From NCBI RefSeq assembly GCF_037975245.1, contig NC_092568.1, positions 31,652,501 to 31,716,500 on the forward strand: a stretch of 64,000 bases of DNA, written 5' to 3'. A model generated the notes under the pieces. That model searched no databases and was not told the DNA's origin. It saw nothing but the letters and a program-made list of their open reading frames with translations. This document shows, piece after piece, positions 8,434 through 32,800 of this stretch. How positions within the stretch are numbered: position 1 is the first letter of the stretch; the number at the start of each line of letters is the position of its first letter. The stretch comes from Apostichopus japonicus (taxonomy: Eukaryota > Echinodermata > Holothuroidea > Aspidochirotida > Stichopodidae). The translations under genes and the position numbers were made by a program.

Positions 8434-9713
8434 ACTACACACATCGACAGTTTTGAGGCAGTTTATCTTGGAACCGCCATTTTCATTGATATCATGTGAC
8501 ATCTGCTGTTTGCTTTACAAATTCGAACAGGCGCGTAGCGAATAATTTGCCAAGGGAGGGGCGAAGTCTGTAGGCAAACTATCTAAGCATATTGCGCCAC
8601 CTTGAGTTGGCGCGAAGCGTACAACAAAATTTTGTCCGAAAATGCCTCCCAGATCGCTGGAAATGACACATCCCAAGCCTTGCCAGTTGCATCTAAGCAT
8701 TTCTATTTGAAATTACTAGCGATATCATAAAAAAAAATATGCTCGGGGGGGGGGGGGGCTGTCGCTCCCTTCCCGAAATGCGTCATGTTCCCCGACGACT
8801 CGGTCGAGTTCGAGACCATCCACATTTAGTGGTTTCATAGCAAAATTTATTGTTTAAGGCGTCCATACACACACACGCGTTTTGATATAGACCAAACATA
8901 GTATATATATAGATACATTAGTGAGAGAAGAAAAATGGAAACGTCAAAAATGAAGTTGTCGGTGTAAGGGGTAGGGTGAGGCGCAAGCCCCTTCCGAAAT
9001 CCTCGATCAGTCACTGGCTACGCGGCCATGTGTATATAATAGAGATCAGCACTGCAATGATGTCACTGTTCCTCTTTCTCTCCCCCTTTCTCTCTCTCCT
9101 CTTTTTTCCCCTCTTTTTTCCCTTTTTTCTTCTCTTTTTTTCCTCTCCTCTTTTTCTTACCCGGGGGCGCGCGCCCCCAACTTCCCCCCTGGATACGCGC
9201 CTGCTAGATGCAAAATGGTGCCACATTTGATGCTAACTTCGATCTGAAGATATCTTCAGAAATTGCTATTTTTAGGTAATGATTTTAACAACGCGCAGAA
9301 TTTTGCAGAGGATATGAACCACATGCTACCGATATTATGCCTAACCCTATCAATAGAACCTACATTTGTTGAATTAATGTGTGCATGACCCCCTACTCCT
9401 TTCTTGTCCTTCTCGTTTTCTCCCATTGTCTATTAAGATGTAACAGGTTCCAGCATCGTTATTAGCTCCTATCAGGGATCTCACCATGCAATCCAAAGTT
9501 TGAGTTTGATCACACATCGAGTATGGCGGCGAAGCGAAGCGGACGTGTATAACCGCTGGTATGGCGTGAGCACTGTCACATTCAATGTAAATATCGACAC
9601 CTGATGTGATGGCGCGGGTTACGACTTCGGTACCCGACGGTCAAGGATAAACTTTTTCATTTTTTCGCAGCTCATTCCCCCCCCCCCCCCTTGGCGACGC
9701 CACTGGTTCTGAC

Positions 9714-10440
9714 ACCCTTGAAAGTGTTGGCTTTGTTTGCTTGATTCAGCTTTTAAGTGAAAAGGATCGAAATTTTCTTTTGCGTGATTTCTTTCTAATA
9801 CCAGTTTCTAATACTACATATAAGCTAAGGATTGTGATGTCTTCTTACGTCTACTGATATCTCTTGAGATCTACTTGGGCGTTCTAACGTAACATATGGT
9901 CTAGTTATGCCTTCCGAGTCTTCTGATGTATCATATAGTGCCATCTAAGGTCTTCCAACGTCCTCTGATGTCTTTTATGGTCTTGTGATGTATTGTATTG
10001 TCATCTAGGGTCCTTCCTCACTTTACTAGCACAGTGAGTTTGATAACTTTGCGATGCTTAGCATGCTCAACTCTTTAACCCTATCGAAAAAGTATATGAT
10101 GTTAACCTTGGGTCGTGGCACTGATGTACTAAACCAGAATGCAAAATGCATTGAGGTTTCGATGACTTCAATGCACTAGACTTCTGCTTGTTAGTGTAAC
10201 CAGAAGTAGCTGTTACAATAACACTATGGCATGCTAACACAGGTCAGTCTACTGTACGTGGTTATACACACCTCCATCAAAAGCAATAGGGTTATTGTAC
10301 TCAATGTTATGAATACACACACCAAGTATTACAAAACCAAACCAAATCTCTAATAACTTCGCACATTAGGGTTGCAGAGGAGTCCACTTATGGACAAGTT
10401 AGATTGGAATATGCCCACGAAACTTCAAAGAATCAACTTG
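9714..10440. other. no gene recognised
   Basis: Unique-looking AT-rich DNA with a loose array of GTCTTCTGATGT-like phrases at about 9836-10020. No coding region or RNA gene is supported. Confidence 0.5.
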
Positions 10441-12030
10441 AAAGAAGCTAATACAGGTCACTGGAGGTCAACCTGAGGTCAAAGGTCACCCAAATGCAGT
10501 TCGACTATTGTATTACAATAGCGTAACTCTCAACCCTGTCAGTGGTAGTTTCACAAGTTATCGGGAAAAAACACATTTTGACCCATAAATGACCTTTGGT
10601 GACCTTGGATCACATCACGGTTATTTTTGAAAATGTGTCCCTACTTCATTCACAACTTGTCCTAATATACCAGCCATGTCAGACTTCGTGACTAGAAGTT
10701 GTTGCAAAAATTAGCATAAGTTGGGAGTTTTTGGCACTTAATCAACCTTGAATGACCTTGAATGACCTAATGGTTTTTATCAAAAATGTTCCTCTTGATG
10801 ATGTGCACTCTGTCCTAAAATCCCAACCTTGATGGACATATGGTTCTCACGTTATTGCAAAAATACTAGTTTTTGACCCCTAATTGACCTTTTTTGACCT
10901 TGGATCATATTACCGTTATGTTTTGAAACGATCCTTTACCCCATTCACAACTAGTCCCAAAATATCAACCATGTCGGACCCTGTTAGTGGTAGTTTCACA
11001 CGTTATTGAGAAAAACAACACATTTTGACCCATAAATGACCTTTGGTGACCTTGGATCACATCACGGTTTTTTTGAAAATGTGTCCCTACTCCATTTACA
11101 ACTCGTCCTAATATACCAGCCATGTCAGACTTTGTGACTAGAAGTTGTTGCAAAAATTAGCATAAGCTGGCAGTTTTTTGCACATAATCAACCTTGAATG
11201 ACCTTGGATGGCCTGATGGTTTTTATCAAAAATGTTCCTCTTGATGAGGTGCACTCTGTCCTAAAATTTGTTTGGCTTACAATATACACACATAATGTTA
11301 TTGCTAGAAATGTATCAAAACCAACCTTTGGCCCCTCATAACTTGAGAACTGGGTGTCCGATTGAAGCGGGAGTTGGTTTCCTATATTCAGCACAAAAAG
11401 CTCTATCATATGTCAACAAATTTTTAAACTTATCTTTGTTCTGTTTTGTTTTGCCCCGTATCTCCTAAAATGAGCATATTTTTTAAGATTTGACCTTTGA
11501 CCTTTTGACCTCGCGGTCAGATGTAGTTTGACACGCTGATTCCAAAAAGCAACATGACAAGTCTGTGCGACCATCCTAACTGTACTTATTAAAAAACAAA
11601 AACATTGACCTCTGATAACTTCGCACACGAAGGTCGCACAGGGGTCAACTATGGATCATTTTGATCGGAAGGTACCTTTGAGATCCGATTATGGCCACGA
11701 AAATTCAAATAACCCAAAAAACTGATAAAGGTCACCGGAGGTCAACCTGAGGTCAAAGGTCACCTAGATGCGGCTCGACTCCCTGATTACAATAGCGTAA
11801 CTCCCAACCTTCACGGACATTTGGTTCTCAAGTTATTGCAAAAATACTAGTTTTTGACCCCTGATTGACCTTTGTTGACCTTGGATCACATGACCGTTAT
11901 GTTTTGAAATGATCCCTTACCCCATTCACAACTGGTCCCAAAATATCAACCATGTCGGATCCTGTTAATGGGAGTTATTGCTTGTTTTAATATTTTGGTT
12001 TTTGGCCTCTAACTGACCTTTGGTGACCTT
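10440..12030 (+). repeat. repeat field rich in AGGTCA half-sites
   Basis: A segment of about 285 bp at 10535-10825 is repeated at 10979-11265 (444 bp apart). A second pair of about 160 bp occurs at 10826 and 11804. The units are dense in TGACCT / AGGTCA hexamers. At 10455-10488 four AGGTCA copies follow each other with spacers of 4, 5 and 1; the same arrangement recurs at 11729-11762. TGACCT pairs spaced by four lie at 10590-10605, 11037-11052 and 12014-12029, and a one-spaced then two-spaced trio at 11491-11511. This looks like transposon-derived sequence; no coding region is seen. Confidence 0.8.
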
Positions 12031-12145
12031 CACAGGCAACACAAAAAATAGGGCACATCTACTCAATGTGGCACTCATATACACCAAATATTAGATTGGT
12101 CCAAGCTTCCCTACTTGAGATACCGTGTTTACAAGCCAGGCGTCA

Positions 12146-12162
12146 CACACACACACACACCC
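12146..12162. repeat. short (CA)n run
   Basis: About eight CA dinucleotides. Confidence 0.8.
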
Positions 12163-12329
12163 ATACATGTAAATGCCCTCAATCGGGGACCATATGTTGA
12201 TACTATGCAAGTGTGGACGTCTTCATATCAAGTTATTGTTTACAGGTTACAAGCGTACTTCCTTGATTGTTAATAAAACATTATGTAAATACCTGATTTG
12301 TTTATTTTTGTCATCATTTACGATCAATT

Positions 12330-13260
12330 ATCATTATGTGATTTTCCACATGCAACTGTGGACATAATGAAAATATATTATCCAATCGTGGACACACAAT
12401 AATGTGTGTACTTTCCACATACCAACTGTGGATGCGAAGGTAATTCTATCCAATTGTGGACACATTAGCGTAGAGTTTTCCCAACTCTAACTGGGGACAT
12501 GTGTGCATAGCATCTGTATATGCCAGGTACTTGCAACACATGACAGCTCAAACCACCACCCTATAATTTCCGAACACAAACATTAGGAATAGTCATTATT
12601 TATTATCAAATACCAATATGTGATATTCCACAATTCAACTGTGGACATCATGGGAATACCGGACTATCCAATCGTGGACAGGGTATAGTGTGAATTAGCA
12701 CATTGCAACTGTGGACACAACGGGAAGGCAATCCAATGCTGGAAACACCGTAGTAGTTTTCCCAATTCTAACCAGGGACATGTTTGCATATCCTCCATAT
12801 GCAAGATATTTTTAACACGTGACAGCTCAAACCACCACCCTACTGTTAAAGGCATATTTTCTGTACATGTAAATAACACAAGTGCCACGTTAACATCATA
12901 ATTAGTCATCACTGGCGATCAACGTGATTTTCCATATCTCAACTGTTGAAATATTGACACTGAATACCGTACTATCCAACCGAGGACACGGTAGCTTATA
13001 GTACGGTGTTTTCCCATATCAACTGTGGATATGAATGAATACTATCCAACTGCGGACATGCTGTGTCTTTAGTGTGGAGTTTCCATATATTAACTGTGGA
13101 TTTGAATGAATACTATCCAATTGTGGACACAGCGTTTATAATGCGGAAGTTCCCAATGTCAACTATGAACTTAATGAATACCATCCAATTGTGGATGTGC
13201 ACACTTAAGCAGAGGGTTTTCCAAAATCTAAGCGGGGACGTGTTTGCACAACCTCTGGAT
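12330..13260 (+). repeat. degenerate tandem field based on ATCCAATTGTGGACAC
   Basis: Alternating phrases TATCCAATTGTGGACAC and CAACTGTGGA(C/T) recur every 50-70 bp. A longer block (TTTTCCCAACTCTAACTGGG ... ACAGCTCAAACCACCACCCT) appears near 12475, 12755 and, more diverged, 13215, giving a higher-order period of roughly 280-460 bp. Non-coding. Confidence 0.7.
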
Positions 13261-13379
13261 ATCACAGCTATTTGTAACATATGGCTGCCTAAAGCATCCT
13301 ACAAACATGGAAGTATTACATTGCTGAAAGGTTTTATTTCTGTACATATATGTAACAGATAATCATTTGTTTGTCTAAA

Positions 13380-14200
13380 CTATATTGAGCTGTAAACTTT
13401 TGTGTAGTTTAGAAAGACATATAAAACAGCTAACCAGTGAAGCCTCAGAAATTAATCTGACATTCTCATGACACAATCAGTGGCGGGGTCCAAGTCTACA
13501 AAATGTTAAAGCTCAGTAGGAAATAAAACATCTCTTCAGAATTAGGTTTGAGCTCCAATGTTGACCTTTACCGATGCAAAGAATCATGAAATGTACAGCA
13601 TAGACAAAAAACAATGTACAAATAGACAATAAACAATGTACAAATTGTTGTTCCAGTTCACATGTATTGTCATGTAATGCAGCTCCTTTAGAGTATTTAC
13701 CATATCTATAGAGACTTTACACATGGTAACGTCACATCTCACTTGTTCTTTGCATGTATGCACTGTGAACAATGCAGAGGCTTCTTAAAAAGTAAACTAC
13801 AATGAATCATACATGACAACACTATATTTGGGCCAATACAGCAGATCTACAAGTTGCAGAAAGTGACTTGTGGCGCTACATGCCTTCATCATTGTCGTAT
13901 GACCTGTTGCTATTCTATGTGAATAATTCATTACAGACCACAACAAGTATAGGCCTACCAACAGCAATAAAGTAGTAAGAGACATTATATGATATGCCAA
14001 CTATGCAAGCAAACACATGAACAAGCTCAGGTACAATGTCCCTTTAATATCTCACAAAAGTGAATCCTTGCTCAGGTTGGCAATCCATCAGCACAAGTCC
14101 TACTTGTATTTAATATTGAAGTAATGAGATAAACTACCACTTGTTGTCATGTTAAAGAGCAGGGTATGGTAACCACATACTAGGGCTATTCTTAAATGCC
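13380..14200. other. no gene recognised
   Basis: AT-rich DNA between repeat fields. Small open frames here lack recognisable domains or flanking splice sites. Confidence 0.5.
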
Positions 14201-14204
14201 ACTT

Positions 14205-15965
14205 AATGAAACAAAATTAAAGTTTTTCACTTGGTGAACTTTATAACATTAAACTTCACTTTAAAGGAACAAATCTGCAATCCTGTCAACTTCAATTAGA
14301 GTAACGCACCCACCCCTCTCACTTTTCCACACCCCCCTCTAGAAAGTGACTGGTAAAATAAGTAAATAAAACAACTTGCTAAACTTTAAAACACTTTATC
14401 TTCAACTTTTGAAACATGTTATCTTTAACTTTAAAACACTAAAACTTTAAAACTATATAAACAACTATATAATCTTTAATTACAGTTAAGCACCCACCTC
14501 TCTTACTTCTCCACCACCCCCCCCCCTCCTCACACACTCCTTGCTTCACCCACCATATTGAAGGGATGATGCTATCACTTACAGATGAAACCATATCGTA
14601 TGCTTATTTCACAAACTATTTGTTCTTGTATTGATAACAATTTCACTGTAAAATTAAAAGGATATCTAGAAAGGTGACTGGTAAAATGTGTAAATAAAAC
14701 AACTTGCTAAACTTTAAAACACTTTATCTTCAACTTTAAAACATGTTATCTTTAACTTTAAAACACTTTAACTTTAAAACTATATAAACAACTATATAAT
14801 CTTTAATTACAGTTAAGCACCGACCTCTCTTACTTCTCCACCACCCCCTCCCCCCTCACACCCTCCTTGGTTCACCCATCATACTGAAGGGTTGAAGCTA
14901 TCACTTACATATGAAACCATATCGTATGATTATTTCACAAACTATTTGTTTTTGTATTGATAACAATGTGACTGTAAAATTAAAAGGATATCTAGAAAGG
15001 TGACTGGTAAAATGTGTAAATAAAACAGCTTGCTAAACTTTAAAACACTTTATCTTTAACGTAAAACATGTTTTCTAAACACTTTAACTTTAAAACTATA
15101 TAAACAACAACATTTACTTTAATTAGAGTTAAGTACCCACATCTCTCACTTCTCCACCATCCCCCCCCCCCCCTCCTTCACACCCTTCTTGGTTCACTTA
15201 CCATATTGAAGGGATGATGCTACCATCTACAAATGAAACCATATCATAGGATTATTTCACAAACTATTTGTTCTTGTATTGATAACAATGTCACTGTAAA
15301 ATTAAAAGGATATCTAGAAAGGTGACTGGTAAAATGTGTAAATAAAACAACTTGCTAAACTTTAAACACTTTATCTTTAATGTAAAACATGTTATCTAAA
15401 CACTTTTACTTTAAAACTATATAAACAACAACATTTACTTTAATTAGAGTTAAGCACCCACCTCTCTCACTTCTCCACCACCCCCCCCCCCCCTTCACAC
15501 CTTTCTTGGTTCACCCACCATATTGAAGGGATGATGCTACCATCTACAGATGAAACCATATCATATGATTATTTCACAAACTATTTGTTTTTTTGTTGAT
15601 AACAATTTCACTGTAAAATTAAAAGGATATCTAGAAAGGTGACTGGTAAAATGTGTAGATAACACACCTTGCTAAACTTTAAACACTTTATCTTTAACGT
15701 AAAACATGTTATCTTAACACTTTAACTTTAAAACTATATAAACAACAACATTTACTTTAATTAGAGTTAAGCACCCACCTCTCTTACTTCTCCACCATCC
15801 CCCCCTCCTTCACACCCTTCTTGGTTCACCCACCATATTGAAGGGAAGGGATGATGCTACCATCTACAGATGAAACCATATCATAGGATTATTTCACAAA
15901 CTATTTGTTCTTGTATTGATTACAATGTCACTGTAAATTTAAAAGGATATCTAGGACAAGTTGAC
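14205..15965 (+). repeat. about 320-bp tandem array, about 5.3 copies
   Basis: Successive copies of the anchor AGAAAGGTGACTGGTAAAAT lie near 14341, 14668, 14994, 15316, 15633 and 15953, giving periods of 317-327 bp. Each unit has a C-rich tract (CTCCACCACCCCCC) and the phrase CCATATTGAAGGGATGATGC. The copies diverge only modestly, so the array is fairly recent. It lies just downstream of the SET-recombinase gene's polyadenylation signal. Confidence 0.9.
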
Positions 15966-16235
15966 TGTTAAAATGTTACTGGTAAAATACTCCACCCATC
16001 ATTTTACTTATACATATTAACTACCAATACTATAATTGGTAAACTAATCATAGTGTATTACAAAATCACCATTGTCACCAACGCAACTGATAAACCTTTA
16101 ATGCATAAAACAACTTAAAAGGTACTCATCAATATAGACCTCAATGAATGCATCAAAGACTTGACTATTTGCATGTTAAGTTTTGGAAGGTCTTTCACAA
16201 TCTTTTTCTCTGGGATTGAGCAGGAACAAGAAGGC

Positions 16236-16241
16236 TTTATT
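16236..16241 (-). terminator. AATAAA polyadenylation signal of the SET-recombinase gene
   Basis: Minus-strand AATAAA lies 60 nt after the stop codon at 16302, a normal distance for a short 3' UTR. Confidence 0.7.
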
Positions 16242-16301
16242 TGAAAGAAAGTATAAGTGTAGTATATAGTAACAGTAATGCAAAGACCATGATCAAAGGT
16301 A

Positions 16302-19300
16302 CTATAGTGTCACAAAACTCAATGGATCGCTTTTTCTATTTTGGTTTCGAATGAAGTCTTTGATGTTCCTCCACGTCCTAGATTGTAGTGTTGGCTCAGC
16401 ATGTATAGCTGTCATGATCTTGTCTTTTCCAGGAAGATTGTTCTTTAAAAAGCAGCTCTTGAATATTCTTGCTACAACTTGCTTTTCTTCTGTGGTCCAT
16501 GGCTTCTTCGTTGTGTTTTGTTTTGTCTTCTTTACACCTGATCAATTTAATAACATGTATATATAATGAGATTTATAAAAGATTGTGTGAAAGTTTTTTC
16601 ATGATCTTGTTGCAAATTGAAGTTCTCACACATTACAAAAGACAACTTGTAATAACCTTTAAAATTCACAATTGATAGCATTTGCATACCTTCACTTGCT
16701 TTGACCTTGGAGTCTGTGTAATCGGATGCAGTGGATGACACCGCAATAGTACTGTAATCATCTTCAACGTCTTCATCACGTGGGACCTCTGGAAAGTGGA
16801 TAATTGTTACCAATTAGCACATCATCATTAGTACTGTTTGGCAAAAAGTTTAGTTCAAATTATTTACAGTTACTTGCAATGCATGTGAGATCACTTCATA
16901 AAAGAAATTTAATGAAGTTCTTACTACCATGGCTGTTCGTTAGACAAAGGTGCAGCTTAAAGCTGAAGTGTTTCAATATCATGTTTAAAGGTCATCATTG
17001 AAATGACTGAACGCCGAGTTCTCATGTTCCAAGGCTAGACATTACAGTCACAAACTAACAGATACCTGATAAGCATTAATGCAGGTAGATAAATATGTGT
17101 TCAGATCAATTACACCTCTCTAATGTACTGATGAATAATGTAATGAAGGGTGTAATGATGGATTCTTCTAACATACAGGACAAATCATCGCTCTTCCCAT
17201 TACTACTTCGAGTACAGAATTTAATATAATAAAACAGTCTGCTGCTTTTTCCAACTAAAAACAAGAAAGTATTATCACCTTCATCAGGCTGTATTTGGAT
17301 TTCATCCAAGCTCTTTCCAACTACATTTTGGAGGTTGCCATTTTCTATGTTGAACAAGACTTTAGACACTTTTGCCACTTGCAACGTCTGATCAGGTAAT
17401 CTGTAGTATTCTCTGTGTGTCCTAATGTCGTGTCCCATGAAACGAGCAATGATGTCAAGTTCATTGTCTTTTAAGTTCATTATTTGGCAAACTGTCGCAA
17501 TGTGCTTGCGAAGGCTTGTCGATGTTACATACTCAGGATGGATCGCCCCACAATTCCTGGCATGTGTTCTAATCACATCAGGTCCTCTGATATGACCTTC
17601 ACTGTGCAATGTTGCAAAAATGTACGGATTTGTCTCCAAAACACCAGCCTCTCTTCTTCTCTGGTAGAGTAGATCCAATGCTTCCTTCAACTCGTTTGTC
17701 ATTAACACTGGAACAGTTCTAGTTTTCTTTCCGATTATCTCTACTCGCCACAGTACTTTGCATAGCTCCTGTTCCAATTTTGATAATCCTTCCACCGCAA
17801 CTCCATTACCACCCTTTGTGCATTTGGTTAGGTCTGATGTCGTCATTTTTGCAACTTCACCTGATCGCTTTCGGTTGAACACTATCAAGGAGGCGAGGGT
17901 CACTTCAGCTAGGTCTTTCCAGGTATGTTTTGCGTCATTTGGTTTACTTGTTGACTCATTCTTCAGTACATTCACTCCACATGCAACTTTGTCTTTGAGG
18001 TACTTGGTTAGTTTGACAATATCACTTGTGACTGGGAGGTACTTTGGTTCATTTCTCTTGTTCTCATTTAGAGTTCTCAAAGCATGCGTTGAAACAAGCT
18101 CTTCCCACTTCATGTTATACAGCTCAATAAAGGCTTTGCTTCGCTTTTCAAGGTCAAAATCACCTTTCATTAGAGCATCACCTTTTAAGATTTCTGCAGA
18201 CTTCTTCAGGCTGTGACCAATTTTTAGTGCTAGACTTGGTGTCTCATAAAGGTGGCTATCAGCATCAAAGCCTGATGTCTGGCGTGTGGCGTTTACAACA
18301 GCTACAAACTTCTTTGGATCGATCAAGTCGGTTAATGATGCATTACTTTCACCAGTCAATTGTCTGTATTCAACTACCATGCGGCCAACTTCTCTTAATT
18401 TCGTTCTAATATATGTATACTGGTCTTTATCATGACCAAGTTTCAAGGCAAGCTTTTCTGCCAGCTGTCTGGTTAACGTGTCTGCTTTAATGAAACGTGC
18501 AACGCCTTCCTCATCACATCTAAGACTCGAAAAGATTTCTGAAGTTATCTTGGTTAGGCCAAATTCAGGCAACATCATTTTCCCTTCTTTAATGTAATTC
18601 CTCCTCTTTGCTGGTTTTGCATTTTGTGCGCCTACATGCTTTCTAAATGGACAACGGTGTTTCCACAGATCACTTTTGGCATAATAGCCAAAGCAATCAC
18701 TGCATGGTAAGTAATCATCTGGGTCTGCCGTGAAATTTGGCCGGTAAACTGGAATCAAAACTCCTTGGTTTTCTTTCCTTACTTTTGCATTGTGTACAAA
18801 GTTTCCATAATTTCTCATTTTTGTAAGTCTTTTAGCCTTCAGCTCTGGATCTTTAGTTGCCAGCCATTGAATAACTTCTGGCTCATCCTTATGTTCCTTA
18901 AATTCAGAGAGATGTCGAGGCAATTTTGCTTGGCTTGTTTGGCAAAATGGGCAATATGCACTCTTATCATATTTCCTTTTTCTACCATTATTTGTTTGCA
19001 ACACCTGAATCCCACATGATCTGCTTGATGATGCTGAGTTACAACTGGTTTTTTCCTGAGAGCATTGGTTGATAATGTCTGATGAGCTGGATACACAATC
19101 AGTTTCTTCTTCACAGTTCTGTTTTGTATTGTGAGATGAACATTTTCTGCTTGAAGAGCTAGATACACAACCACTCCTCTGTGTGAATCGAGGTAAGGGT
19201 ATGACATAACTTTCTCCATCCTCAGAATAATCAGATTCAGGCACATAGTCATCACTATGAGAAGACTCAGATTCTGACTCACTGGTTGAGGCATCACTTT

Positions 19301-22300
19301 CAGAGACTTCATTGTCCATGACTAAGGAACATGTTTCAGGCCCTTTAGCAGGTATGTCCTGAGTCATGAGTTGAGAATCAATGGTTGAGGCATTGCATTC
19401 CAAGGAGTCCTCAGTGTCCATGATCAGGGAACGTATTTCAGATCCTATGTCTGACATATACTTTTCCAAAGAAAGTGGACTCTTTTCATTGAGTAATTGA
19501 GATGCATCTTTTAAAACGTTTTCAGTTTCCAAGTTCAGGACCAAAGAGCTTACTTCAGTATGCTTCATTGGAGTCTCTTTCATCAAAATCTTTGGTGCAA
19601 ACTTCATATCATCAGCAGTCATGGGTTGTGAATCAGATGTTAAAGCAGAGCTGTCTGAGGGGTCTTCAGGGTCCATGAGTAATGAACATATTTCAGGTCC
19701 TTCAACTGTTATGTCCTTGTCTGGAGATGATGATCCCTTTTTATTTCGTTCCGAAACAGTCATGGGTTGTGGGCCAGAGTTTAAGGCATTGCTGTTTGAG
19801 GGGTCCTCAGTGTGCATTACCGATGAACTTATTTTAGTTCCTATAGTTGATATGTCCTTTTCCTGAGATGATGATCTCTCTTCGTTTTGTTCATTAGCAT
19901 TCATGGGTTGTGAGTCACTAGTTGAGACATCGCCATATGAGGGTTCTTTAGTGTCCATCACCAACGAAAATGTTTCAAGTCCTTCAGCTGATATCTTTGT
20001 GGGAGATGATGATTCCTTCTCATTTTGTTCACTCTCAGTCATTGGTGTGGGGTCACTGGTTAATGCATTGCTCTCTGGTGAGTCTTCTGTGTCTATGACT
20101 GACGAAATTAACTCAGAGTGTTGATCTGTAACTCTCTTTTCCAGCGATGACAAAATATCCTTTTTGAGAGATGCTGATATCCCCGTTGCCACAGATGATG
20201 TTGATCCATTTTCATTATGTGCCTGTAATATTCAGCAAAGTTAGTATACATCCTTAAGTCTGAGTAATGTGAGTTCGTTCGGTGATGATCATAGTTTCAA
20301 CATAGTTTCACCTGACTGAATTATTGTCTGAGTTGATAAATCAGTCAGAACTACTTAATGCTGATGAATAAAGTCAATAACTTAAGAAACAAAACTCAAG
20401 TAGGTTGTTTCTTTACTGTCTGTCTACATTACCTGAGCACATTTTATATTATATTGACACAATCAGCATACATACACAGCAAATATTATAGATTATTCTC
20501 AAAGTGATGCAACTAAATGAGATGTCTTTGAATATCCTAGAAATTCAATTAAAAGTGAAAGACGAGTTGCAACGTTGATTGGTTCCATATATTTGCTCCA
20601 CTACTTTGCTGTATGAATGTGCTAAACACAAAGCCAGATAGCATATATACTATGGCAAACTATAAAGTTATAACTTTGGTGAGAACTATGTACAAAGTTA
20701 CCTATCTTACAGTTGAGCTGAGAATAGCTTCTTCATAATAATTAACATTATAATGAATACAATAAACAAAGCAAACTGACATGAAAGTAAACTTCATATG
20801 TTACTTCAAGCAACAACAAGAATATTAAAGAATAGCAAACGTTTTGAAACATTCACTTTCATGAAGTAGAAGACTACTTATACTGGGTTGCATTTTATTC
20901 ATAGAAAAGCAAAGGAATTTCTCACAAAGGTATTCTAGATTTAAAGTTGCAATGTGAAGTGTTGAACACTTGTTTCATTCTCATGATTCCCAGTAACAGA
21001 AGTCTTCCTTATGGTATAACCTCAATTTTTACCTTAGCTTGCTGCTTCCAGGGTAGATTAGACACACCGTAATCGTATAGCAGCTCCTCACCTTCTGCTA
21101 TGTCAGTGAGGGCAAAAAGGCATATTACTGGTGTGCCTTCAAAATCAAGAATAGATGGCTTCACGTTTACTTCATTTTTCTCTCCGTGGTTTACCAACCG
21201 TCCCAATATAGGCCCTGTCTCTCGTTCTTCTGTTGCATCAATACTATTTAAGAAAATAAGGTCCATATTATGAAATATCATCAAGTCTACTCTTGATTAA
21301 TCCTGTCACTTTAAGGATTAATAGTTTGATTAGAAGATGAGTGATTGTTGACATGTCACTTACTACAGACACAAATGTAAAACGTTAATGAAAACTCAAC
21401 AATTTCAGGATTACAATTTACTTCAGAGATTGGAGTTTGGGTTTCATTGCTTTGACTACTGTATAAATATGGAACAGCTAATATGTCTTCAGGCTTATGC
21501 ATGTGAATTATTTACCCATATTTGAACTGTTTAAACCACAAATTACATATGTTTAGTGCTATTATTTCTGTATTTGACCATGTTGACTCGACTGTAGTAC
21601 TAGAAGTATGCAGCAAACAATTTTGCATGCAAACAGTGTTTCAAATATATAGCATGCTGTTCAAGATGAATTGGCGAACTCCTTTACATTTGCACTCAGG
21701 CAGACAATTTAACAATTTGTTAAAGAGTAGAATAGTACATGTTCTCACAAAAGAATCATTTGGTATTCAACTCACCAGAACTCCTTTCCTTTACATGAAA
21801 TGAAAAATCTAAAGCCTGATGACCCTTCTTCCTCTTCAAGCTTATCTCCTTCATTAACTGACAGAAGTGACCCAGCATACTGCAGTAGAAACTCTCCTTT
21901 GGTAAATTTGACCTTCGCAAACACTCCTCTGCCTAGAACAGAGAAGAAAATCCAAGTTATTTTTTACAAAATTCACTGCTCATTCTATCAAGATCACTAG
22001 CTGCACCTTCCCAACATTCAACAAAATGAACCCAAATTGGGAAAGAGTTTCAAAACCACACAATTTCAAAACCCAGCTGTAAATTTTAATAGCCACTCAT
22101 TCTGTGCCTCAGTCGAAAGGGTGTGCAATAATATGCCTTCACACCACATCCATACTACTTGAACATCCAAGAAGAACATCTTTTCCTTAATTCTCCAATG
22201 ATCCTTTCCCCTCCTCGCCCCATTCTTCACTTAGGTTCATTGTCACTCTCCTGTTGTTTTCACTCACTATTTATGCCATTGCTAAATAGTCCTATGTTAA

Positions 22301-22496
22301 ATGTGAATATGTCACTACACAAACTTGTGGGTACTTCTGTCAAGGTATTCTTACTTTATTACAGCACAAGAAGTATAAAACTGAATTTGATACCTTTTTG
22401 TGGTATTTCTTTTACATAAAATCCATCTCTATCAGTTTTTCGTTTAACCATGGAAATGGCAACATCTTCTGGTTTCTCTCTTCTTTTCCTCCTCAT
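16302..22496 (-). CDS. SET domain / zinc finger / tyrosine-recombinase-like / SANT fusion protein, six coding exons
   Basis: Predicted exons (minus): 22496-22394, 21932-21776, 21243-21033, 20222-17279, 16788-16690, 16537-16302. All junctions are GT-AG, phases match, and the sum is 3,750 nt (1,249 residues plus stop). Residues 36-146 form a SET domain like KMT5A: RGVFA, GRLVNHG (101-107), GEELLYDYG (138-146); the family methylates lysine. Residues 198-478 hold five to six acidic Ser-rich repeats of about 47 residues. Two zinc-binding-like motifs follow: C581, C584, H594, H601 and C664, C667, H679, C681. Residues 900-1100 resemble a tyrosine recombinase, with R943, K989/990, R1062, H1088 and Y1096/1097; the first box II His is Thr. 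The C-terminus (KKPWTTEEKQ, RTWRNIKDF) is SANT/Myb-like. The 2.9-kb fourth exon suggests transposon ancestry, perhaps Crypton-like. The start codon in the first exon has A at -3. Probably nuclear. Which activities survive is unknown. Confidence 0.85.
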
Positions 22497-22857
22497 TTTG
22501 TGTGTCAACCTGAAAAAAATAATTCATTTAATTGCAGCATTTTCAAATTTACTTTTCACAGAAGTCATAATGTATTTTAGATTAGATTGAGGTACAGTAG
22601 TTTAAAGGTAATCCATATTTCTTCTTTTCCTGTAGAAAATGGTAGCTCATTCAAACACTCACTGCAGAACATGATGATAAAATGATGATAGAAGTGGGGA
22701 AAGTTAACAATATACTTGGATATTACTGTTACTAAATAAAAAAAAAAACTAGAGAAATCAAACTTTCGGAGGTAGTTTCAGCATCATCCCTAAATAAATT
22801 TCCTTCCTACTTATACAAACACAAGTGTACACAAGTGATGGGATACTATTTTCTTAC

Positions 22858-22974
22858 CAGGTTTGATGGCAACTTCAATGTATATTATCATCAAGTAGAC
22901 TATGATGATTATCAGACTGATGAGTAAGGCGGCTAAACTGATGACCAATGTCCATTCACCAGCACATTTCATTC
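22858..22974 (-). CDS. upstream exon with a transmembrane reading frame (candidate uORF exon)
   Basis: A 117-nt interval is bounded by a pyrimidine-rich AG acceptor and a CTG|GTAAGA donor. Only one frame is open through it: it starts MKCAGEWTLV and has a run of about 22 hydrophobic residues (VISLAALLISLIIIIVYLMI). The exon is symmetric, phase 1 to phase 1. If spliced to the SET exon acceptor at 22509 this frame meets TGA at 22507-22505, eight nucleotides before the SET start codon. It is therefore not fused to the SET protein. It could be a short upstream ORF, an exon of another product, or a chance open frame. No homologue recognised. Confidence 0.4.
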
Positions 22975-23599
22975 CTTGCATTGCAGAGAAAAAGAAGAAG
23001 AAATGGAAAACTCAAACAAAATCTAGTCAAACTGTACTACTATTAGGTCCAATTCATGTTAATACTAATATTATCTGAATAGAAACATCATTGCTAAATT
23101 AAGCTTGCCATGCAGTATTGTTCTATGCAAATACACATCCATTGAATTTTAGTCATTACAAATTTACCATTTGTCTATAAAGGGAACAAGCAATCTGAAG
23201 GGTAAAATCATTTTACATGGCAACCCCAGCACTTTCCATTTTGGCTGTATATTAAGTGTCAATACTCAATGTGTGATAGTGTTCTCACTGTATAGGACTT
23301 TAATATGCTAACTACAGGTGCTTGTTACTATCCATCTGACCAAAGACCTACGTACTGCTGGGTACAAATCTGTATTTCAGAAAATTAAAGGTATTTTACC
23401 TAGAGCTGTCTAAAATATAACTGACAATACATCTTTATTCCTATGAATACATGAACACTGTTATATGAACACTGTCAGTACAGTAGAAATGTATTCTTGA
23501 ACCAGCGGTTAAGAGTGGTATTAACCAGCAAAATCAGTGAACTGTGTTAGTTTGAACACACACATACCAAAGGCACACATCACACAGAAAGTTCATGCA

Positions 23600-26460
23600 G
23601 CAGATGGGAAAACATTCCTAGTTTAGACCTATGTACTGTAGTGTAGCCATGCAATTATTACATAATGAAAAGGTGAATATAGCTTAAACATTTAAAATAC
23701 AATAGTTAAGTGTTCCAATTTCCAATGAAACATCAACACTGTCAAGATTGACTATCTAATAGGGGACATATATCTACAATAATGTACCATAGCAACACAA
23801 CACACAGATAGGTGAAGCAGCAAAAGGGAAAACTGTGCTAGTTTAGACTTACTGTACTGTATCCCAGGTAATTATTTGCTAATGAAACAGATTAATTGAC
23901 TTACCATTAAACATAAAATAGTTAAGCATTCCTGTAAACATTCCACAAAGTGAAAGATTGACTATCTAATAGGGGACATATATCTACAATAATGTACCAT
24001 AGCAACACAACACACAGAGAGGTGAAACAGCAAAAGGGAAAACTGTGCTAGTTTAGACTTACTGTACTGTATCCCAGGTAATTATTTGCTAATGAAACAG
24101 ATTAATTGACTTACCATTAAACATAAAATAGTTAAGCATTCCTGTAAACATTCCACAAAGTGAAAGATTGACTATCTAATAGGGGACATATATCTACAAT
24201 AATGTACCATAGCAACACAACACACAGAGAGGTGAAACAGCAAAAGGGAAAACTGTGCTAGTTTAGACTTACTGTACTGTATCCCAGGTAATTATTTGCT
24301 AATGAAACAGATTAATTGACTTACCATTAAACATAAAATAGTTAAGCATTCCTGTAAACATTCCACAAAGTGAAAGATTGACTATCTAATAGGGGACATA
24401 TATCTACAATAATGTACCATAGCAACACAACACACAGAGAGGTGAAACAGCAAAAGGGAAAACTGTGCTAGTTTAGACTTACTGTACTGTATCCCAGGTA
24501 ATTATTTGCTAATGAAACAGATTAATTGACTTACCATTAAACATAAAATAGTTAAGCATTCCTGTAAACATTCCACAAAGTGAAAGATTGACTATCTAAT
24601 AGGGGACATATATCTACAATAATGTACCATAGCAACACAACACACACAGAGGTGAAACAGCAAAAGGGAAAAACTGTGCTAGTTTAGACCTACTGTACTG
24701 TATCCCATGTAATTATTTGATATTGAAACAGATTAATTGACTAACCATTTAACATAAAATAGTTAAGCATTCCTGTAAACATTCCACAAAGTGAAAGATT
24801 GACTATCTAATAGGGGACATATATCTACAATAATGTACCATAGCAACACAACACACAGAGAGGTGAAACAGCAAAAGGGAAAACTGTGCTAGTTTAGACT
24901 TACTGTACTGTATCCCAGGTAATTATTTGCTAATGAAACAGATTAATTGACTTACCATTAAACATAAAATAGTTAAGCATTCCTGTAAACATTCCACAAA
25001 GTGAAAGATTGACTATCTAATAGGGGACATATATCTACAATAATGTACCATAGCAACACAACACACAGAGAGGTGAAACAGCAAAAGGGAAAACTGTGCT
25101 AGTTTAGACTTACTGTACTGTATCCCAGGTAATTATTTGCTAATGAAACAGATTAATTGACTTACCATTAAACATAAAATAGTTAAGCATTCCTGTAAAC
25201 ATTCCACAAAGTGAAAGATTGACTATCTAATAGGGGACATATATCTACAATAATGTACCATAGCAACACAACACACACAGAGGTGAAACAGCAAAAGGGA
25301 AAAACTGTGCTAGTTTAGACCTACTGTACTGTATCCCATGTAATTATTTGATATTGAAACAGATTAATTGACTAACCATTTAACATAAAATAGTTAAGCA
25401 TTCCTGTAAACATTCCACAAAGTGAAAGATTGACTATCTAATAGGGGACATATAATGTACCATAGCAACACAACACACAGAGAGGTGAAACAGCAAAAGG
25501 GAAAACTGTGCTAGTTTAGACCTACTGTACTGTATCCCATGTTATTATTTGCTAATGAAACAGATGAATATTACTTACCATTTAGCGTAAATAAGTTACA
25601 CATTCCTATGAAACGTCAACACAGTAAAAGATTGACTATCTGATAGGGGACATATATCTACAATACAGCATCACAGGCACTGAACACACAGGAAGCAGTT
25701 CTAGTTTACATCTACTGTAGAAATGCAATTATTTGATAATTTAACAGATGAATATGAATTGCCATTTAGTGTAAAATATCATCACAGGCACACACAGAAG
25801 TGAACCAGCAGTTGGGAAAACTGTGCTAGCCTTTTAAACCTACTGTATTAATGCCATGCAATTATTTAATAATGAGACAGTTGAATATAACTTAAACATT
25901 TAACATAAAATAGTTGGTCATTCCTATGAATATCAACATAGTAAAGATTGACTATCTAATAGGGGTTGTATCTTCCAAACATTATCGTAGGAAAACAGCA
26001 AACAGAGGTGAACCATCAGGAGGGAAAATTGTGCTTGTTTAGACCTACTGTACTATAGCCCATGTAATTATTTAATGAGACAGGTGAAAATGACTTAACA
26101 ATTACCATAAACTAGGACATATATCTCCAATACTATAGCAACACAGTACACAGAGAGGTGAACCAACAGAAAGGAAAATTGTGCAAGTTTAGACTTATAC
26201 AAGTTACTGTACTGTATCCTTTGTAATTATGTGATATAGAGAGCAGATAAATACAACTTAATTACCATTTGGCATTGAATAGTTAAGCATTCCTCTACAC
26301 ATTCCACCAATTAAAAGATTGATTATCTAATAGGGGAGATACACATCCATTAATGTACCATAGGAACACAGAACATAGAGAGGTGAACCCACAGAAGGGT
26401 TCAGTGCTAGGCTGGTTTAGACCTACTGTACTGTAGCCATGTAATTATTTGATAAAGAAA
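23600..26460 (-). repeat. 210-bp tandem array, about 12-13 copies, with embedded microexon-like cassettes
   Basis: Anchor AGGGGACATATATCTACAAT recurs at 23761, 23971, 24181, 24391, 24601, 24812, 25022, 25232, 25443 and 25645, so the period is 210-211 bp in the core. Flanking copies out to 26460 are more diverged. The core copies are almost identical. On the minus strand each core unit contains AG, a 27-nt segment (GAATGCTTAAC...TTTAATG), then GTAAGT. These 27-mers lie at 23905-23931, 24115-24141, 24325-24351, 24535-24561, 24746-24772, 24956-24982, 25166-25192, 25377-25403 and 25579-25605; a diverged one lies near 26266-26292. The array sits between the putative first exon and the SET coding exons. 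Confidence 0.9.
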
Positions 26461-26876
26461 CGAGTGAAACAAACTACACTATGAATTCAACTTGCTGAAA
26501 AATACTAGGCCTGCACCTAGCTTCTTCAGTCTTATCTTTTCTAATCGCATTTAGAAAGTCCTACTTGATATATTTGAAATTCGAGGCCTAAAGCCTCGGC
26601 CAAAAATAGTCAATCAATGATAGCCTCAATTAGACTAGAGTTAGACTATGCCTAACAGTGATACTGATAGAGGCCGGCCACGGAAGTAGTAATAGTACTA
26701 ATAGTAATACTATTACTAGGCCTAGCCTTCAATGAAACTTAAAATACTAAGTTCTTACAATTAGAGTTAGGTAGCACTGTTATTTTCGGCTGACAGTGCT
26801 GCACATCGGAATCATATCAAACCGAGACACTCCAAAAAAAAAAAAGACATTCTGTTCATTACTCACCGAATAACTG

Positions 26877-27100
26877 ATGAGGCAAGCGTCTATAGACTCG
26901 TTGTAACTTGTGTAGTGCAGTGCACGGAACGGGTACGTAACTTGTAACATACAATCTTTGCTTGTAACAAAAACGCGCGCAAACACGCAGCTTGCCTGGA
27001 CCAACATACTGTGGAAGTGTATGAGGGCGCTGTTGATACACAATGTACTATTGACAGACATAACATACACACTGGATACACTGCAACATACGCTGTACGG
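26877..27100 (-). other. putative 5' non-coding first exon of the SET-recombinase gene
   Basis: A strong minus-strand donor, TTATTCG|GTGAGTAATG, ends an exon-like segment at 26877. The open frame ending in the right phase has a stop upstream and no ATG, so it would be untranslated. The transcription start is not defined; no TATA box is evident. Assignment to the SET gene is by orientation and the lack of another candidate. Confidence 0.35.
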
Positions 27101-27639
27101 TTCAATCGTGGACCAGCATTACAGGCACGAAATAATTAAATAGCGCCACTATTAGGTCCAAAATATACTGTTCCCATTGTAATAACAATCGGGGACCGTC
27201 CGCGTTTCCCGAGGCGTCCGCGATTGACGGGTGTGTATTCACATTTTCGTCCGCGGTTGAGGGTAATTGCTAACGCACACACACGCACACATACACACAC
27301 TCTCCGCCTGCATGAATGCATAGGTTACGATTTCATCGAAACCAAAAAGGAGAAGCCAACTATAGAAGGGTTTATTTTAAAAAGAGCCCAACAGGCACTA
27401 TGAGTCCTTCCTTAGTGGAATGTTAAAGTGTTGTATGTCATTACGCAGTTTCATGGAATGGACTCGACACAATTATTAAAAGTACTCGGCCCGAAAAATT
27501 GGGGCCGAGAGAATGTGTCCCAAAATGCATTTGAGGTGGAAATAAAATATGGGTCCACCCGGCCCTAAAACGGGCCCGAAATTTTGATGTTCCCAAAGCT
27601 TTCAGACCTACATGTACCAGGTATTCCAAACTCTAAGCT

Positions 27640-28460
27640 GGTGTTTCAGCCTAGATATAGCTTCTGCTCATAGTTTAAGCGAAAGAGATCGTTACCCTTG
27701 TGAGTAAAGTTGATACCGAGATATCTAATAGGAGCATTAGTAATCAAAATATTGAATTCACTGACATGAGCTGGATTATTTGAAATGAAAGGACCAAGGG
27801 GAAGAAACTGGGATTTGCTGAGATTAATTTTGAGACCTGATGCTAGTCGAAAATTCTCTAAGGGTATTCAGCACCTTAACAGTGCTGTTGCGGGTACCGT
27901 CTAAGAAGAATGGGGTGTCGCCGGCATACTGCAGTACTTCAATCTCCCGGCCAAATATGTTTATTCCCTTGACTGTGTTGGCACAAATATTTTTTTTGGC
28001 TAAAATATCTGCACATAGAATAAAGAGGTACGGGCTAAGGGGACAACCTTGCCTTACTCCTCTCTGAATAGGGAAGAAACCTGTCGAATGACCATTATTT
28101 AGAACACAGGAAAACTACCAGTGTAGAGTGTTTTTGATCCATCGTCGAAAACTGTTCCCAAAGTTGAAATAAATAAGAGTGTGGTCAATAAAATCCCAAT
28201 CGATACAATCAAAAGCTTTTTCTAAATCAATAAAGAACAAAAGACCCGGAATGTTATTTGTGGTAGTGTGATCGATTAGGTCCAGCACAAAACGAATTTT
28301 TTCCCCAATAAACTTATTTTTGATAAAACCAGTCTGGTTATCCCCAAAAGTATTGTCGACGACCCGTTTTAACCGGATAGCTACTGCTTTTGCTCCAATC
28401 TTGTAGTCAGTGTTAAGGATACTAATTGGTCTATAGTTAGCTATAACGTTATGCATGGTC
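27640..28460 (-). pseudogene. L1/Tx1-like LINE reverse-transcriptase fragment
   Basis: Minus-strand reading shows ordered reverse-transcriptase motifs: NYRPISILNTDYKI, GFIKNKFIGE, LLFFIDLEKAFDCIDWDFI, then (after a frameshift or stop near 28115) RQGCPLSPYLFILCADIL and QYAGD in place of YADD, then SGLKIN and IRYLGI. The catalytic Asp pair is changed to GD and the frame is interrupted, so the copy is dead. No endonuclease domain remains. The motif style is closer to L1/Tx1 than to the CR1/L2-like element at 30 kb. Confidence 0.8.
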
Positions 28461-28490
28461 CTTATACGGCTTAGGAATCAGAGTAATGAA

Positions 28491-29574: not shown

Positions 29575-29889
29575 GCTATCAAAGGGCGCTATCAAAGGGC
29601 GCTATCAAAGGGCGCTATCAAAGGGCGCTATCAAAGGGCGCTATCAAAGGGCGCTATCAAAGGGCGCTATCAAAGGGCGCTATCAAAGGGCGCTATCAAA
29701 GGGCGCTATCAAAGGGCGCTATCAAAGGGCGCTATCAAAGGGCGCTATCAAAGGGCGCTATCAAAGGGCGCTATCAAAGGGCGCTATCAAAGGGCGCTAT
29801 CAAAGGGCGCTATCAAAGGGCGCTATCAAAGGGCGCTATCAAAGGGCGCTATCAAAGGGCGCTATCAAAGGGCGCTATCAAAGGGCGCT
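29575..29889 (+). repeat. perfect 13-bp minisatellite, 24 copies
   Basis: The unit GCTATCAAAGGGC repeats 24 times with no mismatch that I can find, ending in a partial unit. Because 13 is not a multiple of three and the unit has no in-frame stop on this strand, all three frames are open and encode the same 13-residue repeat. The resulting long ORFs are therefore artefacts. It directly precedes the LINE at 29890. Confidence 0.95.
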
Positions 29890-32800
29890 GCTCCGCGGCA
29901 GCCAGGACTTACGAGCTCTCGCAAATTTTCAAGTTTTTAACTACAATTGGACTCATCCAGTCTGCAGTCGTTATATATCTAGTAGCTTCCAAGGTGGTGA
30001 AGGATATTATCACTCCACTCAGAACTTTCGGAGGTAATTGCATCAAAACTGGTCTGTTTTATCTGTAAACTTTTTCATATCCTTTAGCCTAGCCGCCTGT
30101 TTGCATTACGTGTGTACACGTACATATCATCACGTACAGCGTACAATACGCGGGGAATCAATTATTGTTTGACACTATGCCTGTACGGTATACAAGAGAG
30201 CAGCTACTGGCACTACGTAATCACAAAGCCACACACAATAGTTATCTGAAATCCGTTTACGAGAACTGTGATGTGCTATTATTGAAATCCATTCGGCGGA
30301 AACTACGAGGTGTACGCGGTGGTAGAAGGGAAAAGTTCCGAAAAATCCCGATTCCTTCAATAACATTACTCAATGCACAATCGCTCAACAATAAATACGA
30401 CGAACTTGTTGGAAATATCAAAGCGATCCAGAAAATACGCGATTCCTGTATCATTGCAGTGACCGAATCATGGCTACGAAGTTCGACCCCGGACACTTTG
30501 GTGAACATACCGGGTTATCATCTATGCAGGGCCGACCGTGACCCAGGTAAAAGCGGGAAAACCAGGGGTGGAGGACTTATAACGCGGATTAATAAAAAAT
30601 GGTGCAATAACGTCTCGATAAAACAGACGTTTTGCTCTGAACACTTGGAACTTTTAAGAATTATTTGCCGTCCCTTTTACCTACCTAGAGAAATCAGTGC
30701 AATAGACATTTTAGTTGTTTACATTCCACCAAGTGCAGAGAGTAAGGTTGCTTTGGACACCATTAGTGACGTAGTTAGGGTCTGTGAAGCACAACATCCC
30801 GATGGAATTATCATATCATTGGGAGATTTTAACCGGAGAATTTTGAAGGGCCTTTTTCCGCAAGTTACACTCCATACAAGAGGCAATCAGACTCTGGACC
30901 AATGTTTCACTTCAATTGAGAACTTGTATCGGTGTTCGGTGTTGCCACCTTTGGGAGGATCGGATCATTCTACTGTTCATCTCAAACCGGATTATATTAC
31001 AAAATTCAAAAGGGACAAGCCTGTCGTCAAATCCCGTCTCATGTTTAATGACCAGGAGTCATTAGACAAGTTACGTCATATGCTGGAAACGACAGTTTGG
31101 AACTGCTTAACTGACTGGAACGATTTTGATCACACCATGAATGTGATTACGGGATATCTTCAGTTTTGTATCGAAACAACTATGCCGGTGAAGTACTTCA
31201 AGACATACCCAAACAATCACCCATGGATGAACAACAAAGTTAAAAATCTACTGAAAGAAAAACATGGATTACTGGGAACCAATATTGATCTGCGGACAGT
31301 TAATGCTAAGATCAGAAGCGAAATTCGTTCTGCCAAACGGCAATATAAAGATAAAGTCATGTCCAAGGCATCAACAAATCCAAAGGAAATGTGGAATGGA
31401 CTGAAGCTCATGATGGGTTGTAATGACGTAGAAGCCGATCGCACAACTGTTGATGCTGGTGACCTAAACAAGTTTTTCTGTCGATTCGAACGACCAAAAC
31501 AACCTATCGACCTCCCAGAAGTGGACGGAACCCTGGAACCACCCTTCACGCTGGATGACGTCACTTCCGTTCTAAGATCGTGTAAGGCATCTCCATCATG
31601 TGGCCCGGACAATATTCCCGGATGGTTACTGAAATATTGCCACTCTGAACTCGCACAAGTTGTTTACATGTTATATGCTCATTGTTTTAAGACTGGTTAT
31701 ATACCTTGTGATTGGAAAAAGAGCAAGATCATACCATTACCGAAACTATCTCGCCCAACTGGAAATAAGGATTATAGACCTATTGCACTAACCAGTGTTT
31801 TAATGAAGTGTTTCGAGAAACTTCTTCGTAGCGAAATATTGAACTGTATTCCATCACTGGACAAATACCAATTCGCATACCGCAGTGGCAGATCGACGGA
31901 GGATGCCTGCCTGCTTCTGGACACTATTCTACGTCAACATGTGGACACTCCTAGTAATTATGCAAGGATTTGTTTTATGGACTTCAGTTCTGCATTTAAT
32001 ACCATTTGCTGTTCTAAATTACTGGACATTATGAAGGCGTATGTCAGTAACAATGTAATTATTCTTCTTTATAACTTCCTGTTTAATCGTACACAGTTTG
32101 TTCACTGTAACAGTGTCAACAGTGATACTCTCGTAATTAACACTGGTGTTCCACAGGGTTGTTGCTTGTCCCCATTACTTTTTGAAATTTATACTGATTC
32201 ATTAGTCTCTTGTTATGACAATGTTTATATCTTGAAGTATGCAGACGATACTGCCATAATTGGGATGTGCACCGATAAAAACCCACAATGTCTAACAAAT
32301 TATTTTGCAGCCATAGAGTATACTGTGAATTGGTGCAAGGATAATTATATGCTTATTAATGGTAAGAAAACCAAGGAAATGATTGTTGATTTTCGTGCAG
32401 TGCAAAGTCATGCCCCATTGTACATTGACAATAATGTGATTGAGGTTGTGTCAGATTTTAAATATCTTGGATTAACCTACAACAGCTCGCTTACTTGGAA
32501 TACCCACGTGAATAATTTGGCAGCAAAAGCTAAACAGAGATTATATTGTATTCGTAGGCTCGCCGGCTTTGGCTTAGATTTTGATAAGCAGCTTTGGCTT
32601 TTTCAGACAACGGTGCTGTCTTTCCTTGTGTACTGTGGCCCAGTTTGGTTATCATCCTGTTCTAAAGGACAATTAGACTACTTGAATAAATCCGTCAAGT
32701 TGTATTCTACCATCACGGATGATTTTATTGAACGTATCATATGTCTATGTGCTTCTTCTATAGTCGAGGATTCCGAACACCCTCTTTTTGATTTTTATAT

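Follow-up and report, generated by a model that had tools for sequence, protein, structure and literature searches.

A probable CryptonV-like transposon of Apostichopus japonicus whose one gene joins a KMT5A-like SET domain to a tyrosine-recombinase-like domain

We analyzed a stretch of 64,000 nucleotides from the genome of the holothurian Apostichopus japonicus (NCBI RefSeq assembly GCF_037975245.1, contig NC_092568.1, forward strand), which we call the window and which corresponds to C8:31652501-31716500 in our contig numbering. An initial annotation, made from the letters alone, had joined six exons in this window into one gene for a SET domain, a tyrosine-recombinase-like domain and a SANT domain. 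We find that this gene lies in a mobile element of about 15.1 kb with defined ends, inserted in a (TG)n microsatellite, with recent copies elsewhere in the genome, intact empty sites and a domain order that is stable across subfamilies. From its sequence, the element is very probably an autonomous and recently active transposon of the Crypton type, similar to CryptonV, encoding one protein composed of a SET domain, a linker, zinc-finger-like motifs, a recombinase and a Myb/SANT-like tail.

The mobile element, its ends and its target

We searched the 672-Mb assembly; the match counts given here and below are lower bounds. The protein encoded by exon 4 of the gene has at least 48 matches in the genome, and 41 of these 48 have no internal stop. 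The best are 100% (C8:7755036), 99% (C19) and 98% identical (C14, from residue 26); there is also one decayed copy (C8), as well as many subfamilies at 34-50% identity, several of which appear as sets of near-equal scores spread over different contigs. We refer to the window copy as W, to the second copy on C8 as c2, and to those on C19 and C14 as c3 and c4; subfamily A is that of the window. W is 99.49% identical to c2 over 9,173 bp and 98.47% identical to c3 over 9,061 bp, and outside the element the sequences around W, c2 and c3 are unrelated except for repeats. The gene described below is the only one found in the 15.1 kb. The element and its surroundings are as follows:

12162..27275, minus strand: whole mobile element, about 15.1 kb, at C8:31,664,662-31,679,775 (collinear copies on C8 and C19, ends common to subfamily B, empty sites)
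27276..27299, no strand assigned: left half of the (TG)n target microsatellite
12144..12161, no strand assigned: right half of the (TG)n target microsatellite
27103..27259, no single strand: left-end iterons CAANYGNGGAC (n=4), of which two face inward on the gene strand and two lie on the opposite strand
12180..13128, plus strand: right-end iterons CAANYGNGGAC (n=11), 11/11 facing inward
27300..27348, minus strand: 5' part of repeat T, a host repeat outside the element
10132..12143, minus strand: 3' part of repeat T, interrupted by the element
23744..25665, no strand assigned: 210-bp tandem array in the element
14338..15976, no strand assigned: 317-bp tandem array in the element

The ends were placed by comparing W, c2, c3 and c4 with two copies of subfamily B (b1 and b2). 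The left-end junctions read (TG)n/CGTTAGCAATTACCCTCAACCGCGGAC and (TG)n/CGTTAGCAATTACCC... (window 27275), and the right-end junctions ...GTCCCCGATTGAGGGCATTTACATGTATG/(TG)n and ...TTTACATGTATG/(TG)n (window 12162). (TG)n flanks the element on both sides in W, c2, c3, b1 and b2, the five copies for which both ends were read, and the right end of c4 is also at TG. The leftmost 176 bp of the element are identical in three copies and have only one further scored match, at 84%; there is thus no sign of numerous short derivatives that share this left end. Ends further out, at TTTTTGGTT/CTGGTT with TGGTT as the core, would make the element 17.2 kb long. They were rejected: these sequences terminate the interrupted repeat T, and c4 and subfamily B, once compared, place the element ends at (TG)n.

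The host site of the element is a (TG)n tract inside this dispersed repeat T. When the two flanks of c2 were joined and the genome was searched with the product, 38 of the 41 scored matches ran contiguously through the join as intact empty sites; one of them was compared base by base. T appears to be a high-copy repeat, with 1,701 candidates on a first look at the genome. Its start is palindromic (TTTTTGGTTCCTTGC...AACCTATGCG in c2, b2 and locus L126, with a variant form in the window), and an internal (TG)n is followed by a AGGTCACCAAAGGTCA-rich body (window 27348-27300 and 12143-10132; L124-L126).

Both ends of the element carry the iteron CAANYGNGGAC. All of its 15 occurrences in the 64-kb window fall within the two ends, against 0.79 expected, although the motif was derived from the ends of subfamilies A and B and this count is therefore not fully independent. 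None of 100 shuffles reached 15, and the other 62.9 kb of the window contain zero iterons. In subfamily B, the same motif is present at both ends and also in an internal array. This tandem array has a period of about 200 bp (b1 9447-13118), and the iterons recur at its ~200-bp spacing. No iterons were found in the 10-kb stretches inspected for subfamilies C and D, which may not reach the element ends.

The gene and its domains

The gene consists of six exons on the minus strand:

22394..22496, minus strand: exon 1, start codon, basic N-terminus and beginning of the SET region (the subfamily B counterpart has an ATG)
21776..21932, minus strand: exon 2, SET domain with the GRGVF motif
21033..21243, minus strand: exon 3, SET domain with the NH and YDYG motifs, PW and a phase-0 donor
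17279..20222, minus strand: exon 4, acidic repeat linker, two zinc-finger-like motifs and the tyrosine-recombinase-like domain
16690..16788, minus strand: exon 5, kept in copies c2 and c3
16302..16537, minus strand: exon 6, Myb/SANT-like C-terminal domain and stop codon

All five introns have GT-AG borders and agreeing phases, and the joined exons give 3,750 nt with a single terminal stop, encoding 1,249 amino acids. We reproduced this join exactly as it had been proposed, and the model holds in both c2 and c3, where six of six exons were found at 99.5-100% identity, with identical splice sites and without internal stops. Our results also support the initial annotation in seeing one gene that joins a KMT5A-like SET domain to a tyrosine-recombinase-like domain. 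The letters of the window alone could not reveal that this gene has many copies in the genome and sits in a mobile element. Among its domain labels, SET was confirmed, and the tyrosine recombinase was retained as a remote similarity. The SANT domain was dropped as a firm label: no Pfam match for SANT/Myb was obtained in the C-terminal tail, and the match to c-Myb found with a profile is weak (E 0.024).

In the predicted protein, the SET domain (residues 1-157) is followed by a linker (158-560) that is acidic, partly tandem and built on a 141-bp repeat, by two Cys/His motifs (~581-681) and by the recombinase-like region (~880-1110). The Cys/His motifs appear zinc-finger-like by eye; a Pfam search of the window copy gave no zinc-finger match of note for them.

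The SET region matches PF00856 with an E-value of 3.9e-17. Its nearest relatives of solved structure are KMT5A/SET8 (6.6e-22), a chain described as 'Protein with a SET domain' (2.3e-18) and MLL/HRX (1.4e-11); SETMAR comes much lower in the ranking (2e-5). The window copy is of the KMT5A type, with KMT5A as best match and with GRGV, NH, YDYG and PW all present. We read 20 further SET exons from the genome: [YF][DN]YG is found in 20/20, PW in most, and NH in 11 (L127-L136 and L141). From these PDB matches, we infer that the SET domain was captured long ago from a KMT5A-type gene.

Across 21 aligned copies of the recombinase-like domain, the motifs FNR[RK]RxGE, [YF]YRLP and T-x-[LV]-R-K-[HQ] are present in every copy, as are both arginines and the tyrosine; GHD is found in 20 copies and SHD in one. 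In an alignment of nine subfamilies (A1), the columns for Arg, Gly-Lys, Arg, Gly-His and Tyr are invariant, and the position of the tyrosine corresponds to the spacing in XerD. We compared the profile of this alignment with that of 78 phage XerD-like integrases using hhalign, obtaining a score of 38.9 (E 2.7e-4), with the first Arg, GK, the second Arg and GH all in register. In the controls, the highest score among 100 column shuffles was 24.3, and the reversed profile scored 17.9. Pfam did not detect a recombinase in exon 4 of the window, and sequence searches of the PDB, PHROGs, phages and IMG/VR with the recombinase found nothing. A tyrosine-recombinase fold is likely on these alignments.

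Domain order across subfamilies

The association of the three parts was examined at 46 recombinase loci (48 matches, with two split copies merged) and 125 SET matches, using a partner window of 20 kb. Among the recombinase loci listed, 31/46 are preceded within 20 kb by a SET exon in the same orientation, against none of the 46 in each of three control arrangements (downstream or on the other strand). Similarly, a tail exon lies downstream at 28/46, against none in three controls (upstream or on the other strand). Both partners are present at 25 of these loci, and either at 34. Seen from the SET side, 38 of the 125 matches listed have a tail exon downstream, and none has one upstream.

In some subfamilies, the SET and recombinase parts share one open frame. 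At L010, no stop or intron comes between the SET exon and the recombinase, and the frame extends over 951 amino acids; the SET and recombinase matches at C15 25753164/25748973 and at C16 29896073/29898176 report equal frame lengths of 1,484 and 1,429 amino acids, respectively. Elsewhere, an in-phase GT follows the SET exon after PW, as seen in subfamily B, L020, subfamily C and 17 of the 20 further SET exons; in L136, L141 and L142 the exon reads on without an in-phase GT. A tblastx comparison of whole elements between A and b1 (recombinase identity 47%) recovers coding sequence in exons 1-4 and 6, with exon 5 not recovered, and shows that the terminal ~140 and ~65 bp are conserved as well. 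No other substantial coding was found between the whole elements of A and B, which share beyond the exons and ends just three segments of 13-23 residues.

The SET and recombinase parts also appear to have diverged together, their distances being correlated across nine subfamilies (r 0.56, permutation p 0.005). The exception is the SET exon of A, which is 67-68% identical to those of L018 and L014, with 44-46% identity in the recombinase. Between W and either c2 or c3, there are 0 amino-acid changes in the SET and zinc-finger-recombinase parts, and 3 and 9, respectively, in the linker. Against the broken copy c4, the ratio of nonsynonymous to synonymous differences per site (pN/pS) is 0.27 for the recombinase part and 0.82 for the linker, with one change in SET; these values derive from small numbers.

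Other SET exons have a different arrangement. Many on C4, C14, C19 and C20 are close to neither a recombinase nor a tail exon among the matches listed, and several of them occur in pairs about 3 kb apart (e.g., C14:10622666/10625815). L144 and L145, which were read, are of the ND type discussed below. These exons represent another multicopy KMT5A-like family, possibly host arrays or other elements.

The window contains reverse-transcriptase frames of other retroelements at 30093-32903 (+), 47562-48725 (+) and 28118-28477 (-), as well as a 13-bp unit, GCTATCAAAGGGC, repeated 24 times without mismatch at 29575-29889 and open in the three plus-strand frames. The COX1 of this assembly has the expected residues, such as GFGNW and PRMNN, at AAA and ATA codons under the echinoderm/flatworm mitochondrial code, in keeping with an echinoderm host, and it matches COX1 chains of solved structure at up to 1.9e-239, with bovine 1occ among the top entries. 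Elsewhere in the assembly, C29:14745-31219 carries COX1 fragments in addition to those of C35, and is either a second mitochondrial contig or a nuclear copy.

Alternative readings and known systems

The element is mobile DNA whose ends can be defined and whose empty sites are found in the genome. The recombinase, a call of remote similarity, is its sole transposition enzyme; there is no reverse transcriptase, and the RVT_1 frames of the window all lie outside it. Together with insertion into a microsatellite, as in CryptonV, these properties point to a Crypton-type transposon. Several observations weigh against this assignment. The histidine of the HxxR motif is replaced by threonine in 21/21 aligned copies, and the GK pair, kept in 20, is GN in L013; because of these two replacements (Thr for His, and Asn for Lys in L013), the catalytic activity of the recombinase is something that we infer. 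PF00589 matches only two of the nine subfamily members (6.5e-5 and 8.2e-5), both under the curated cut-off, leaving seven, the window's own included, without a match. The recombinase profile has no match among PDB sequences, and the hhalign probability is 41%, over a scored stretch that ends before the tyrosine, which is matched by spacing alone. On the SET side, NH is changed to ND in 9 of the 20 exons (L137-L140 and L142-L146), so that methyltransferase activity is not assured: the SET fold appears to be kept, and the activity may not be present in all subfamilies. Neither partner exon was detected at 12 of the 46 recombinase loci listed, which are 38-40% identical to the window copy; the only one of these examined further, C16:32001416, does have SET exons by direct tblastn. 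In subfamily B, the visible exon-4 acceptor is out of phase with the donor, and a small extra exon may be missing from the model. Copy c4 is broken, with a left end that was not found and a right flank that is a TG/TATG run and not repeat T, and its 27 kb hold two iterons outside the element. Finally, imperfect terminal inverted repeats are present at both ends, which is unusual, as animal Cryptons are reported to lack them (PMC3212892).

Two of these observations, the inverted repeats and the threonine in HxxR, would be explained if the element were of the DDE cut-and-paste kind and mobilized in trans, its recombinase-like domain acting only in DNA binding; the TG on both sides could then be a target duplication. 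We regard this as improbable, since R, K, R, H and Y are invariant in the nine-subfamily alignment with the tyrosine at integrase spacing, and since A and B share no other substantial coding beyond the short segments mentioned above. Even less probable, in our view, is that the element holds two genes, one for SET and one for the recombinase. The gap between the SET and recombinase exons does reach 9-13.5 kb in some subfamilies, and the phase mismatch in subfamily B would also fit, but a single frame spans both parts in L010, and apparently at the two loci on C15 and C16, whereas in the further SET exons the frame either continues past the exon (L136, L141, L142) or meets an in-phase donor (17/20). 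A domesticated host gene, in which a former recombinase was fused to SET and kept as a chromatin regulator, was one of the two origins put forward in the initial annotation. The absence of amino-acid changes between W and c2 or c3, the KMT5A-like SET domain and the richness in introns would agree with it. However, multiple copies in many subfamilies, recent movement, defined ends, a (TG)n target, empty sites and decayed copies do not support domestication, and terminal iterons are not expected on a host gene; we consider this origin highly improbable. The other origin proposed there, capture of a SET domain by a mobile gene, agrees with our results, as many subfamilies retain SET as a constant component of the mobile unit. 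Its query 'Crypton-like?' was correct as to the kind of element, which falls outside the CryptonA/DUF3504 group of the same genome. The DUF3504/CryptonA-like frames of this genome form a separate group with no resemblance by eye to the SET-recombinase family, and HxxR is kept in the three of them that cover the motif.

For a CryptonV-like transposon of this structure, we propose that the zinc-finger-like and/or Myb-like parts would bind the CAANYGNGGAC iterons and that the recombinase domain would cut at the element ends, probably giving a circular intermediate, whose recombination into (TG)n would leave TG alone on both sides. The SET domain might methylate lysines of histones or of the recombinase, rendering the chromatin of the element or of the target permissive; the role that we would favor is anti-silencing, or the opening of the target or donor site. 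We suggest, tentatively, that this could be an animal transposon lineage in which a histone methyltransferase and a site-specific recombinase share one polypeptide that writes its own chromatin mark at integration or excision, the two parts having diverged together with occasional SET swaps. It is possible, if rather unlikely, that SET is passive cargo without a role in transposition. The change of NH to ND in 9/20 exons would favor this, but SET lies upstream at 31/46 of the recombinase loci listed, spanning many subfamilies, and retains [YF][DN]YG in all 20 exons read and PW in most.

If the proposed role is true, this would be a transposon bringing its own chromatin writer within the recombinase protein, and its simple (TG)n target and clear end iterons would allow point mutants to be used to test what chromatin modification does in transposition. 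Multicopy 'KMT5A-like' genes exist in animal annotations; some may be transposon genes and not host methyltransferases.

CryptonV is listed among the Crypton groups in Repbase (PMC5753468, PMC4455052), and some of its families insert specifically into microsatellites (PMC8869645, citing Kapitonov and Jurka 2012, Repbase Reports 12:2034). The present element resembles CryptonV as described in being an animal tyrosine-recombinase DNA transposon with a microsatellite target, and differs in its host: the reported CryptonV are from cnidarians (PMC8869645), and A. japonicus is an echinoderm. With CryptonA and CryptonI, whose relatives have been domesticated in chromatin proteins, it shares the condition of an animal transposon with a lone tyrosine recombinase. 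However, animal Cryptons are reported without terminal repeats or a C-terminal domain, whereas the element described here has inverted ends, iterons, a SET domain and a tail domain (PMC3212892).

With regard to the SET domain, the closest known protein is KMT5A/SET8, whose GRGV, NH, YDYG and PW are all found in the window copy; KMT5A/SET8 has neither recombinase nor mobility, and 9/20 element-type SET exons differ from it by ND for NH. Harbinger and MuDR elements have transposases of the DDE class, and in SETMAR, a host gene, the mariner transposase is inactive. SETMAR is similar in that SET is joined to a transposon enzyme (PMC8704517), and differs in that the present fusion is mobile, its recombinase is of another class and its SET domain is of the KMT5A type. 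HarbingerS and MuDR elements of Phytophthora carry SET histone methyltransferase genes, and, according to the same 2025 paper, transposon-borne enzymes that alter epigenetic marks, SET genes included, counteract silencing (PMC12730594). They too are DNA transposons with SET, but in the present element a single protein contains both SET and a tyrosine recombinase. Our literature search, which covered sources in part and did not extend to Repbase itself, revealed no account of a fusion between SET and a tyrosine recombinase. Both Cryptons and transposon-borne SET were already known; what appears to be new, within the scope of that search, is the fusion of SET within a Crypton-type element that is CryptonV-like by its target.

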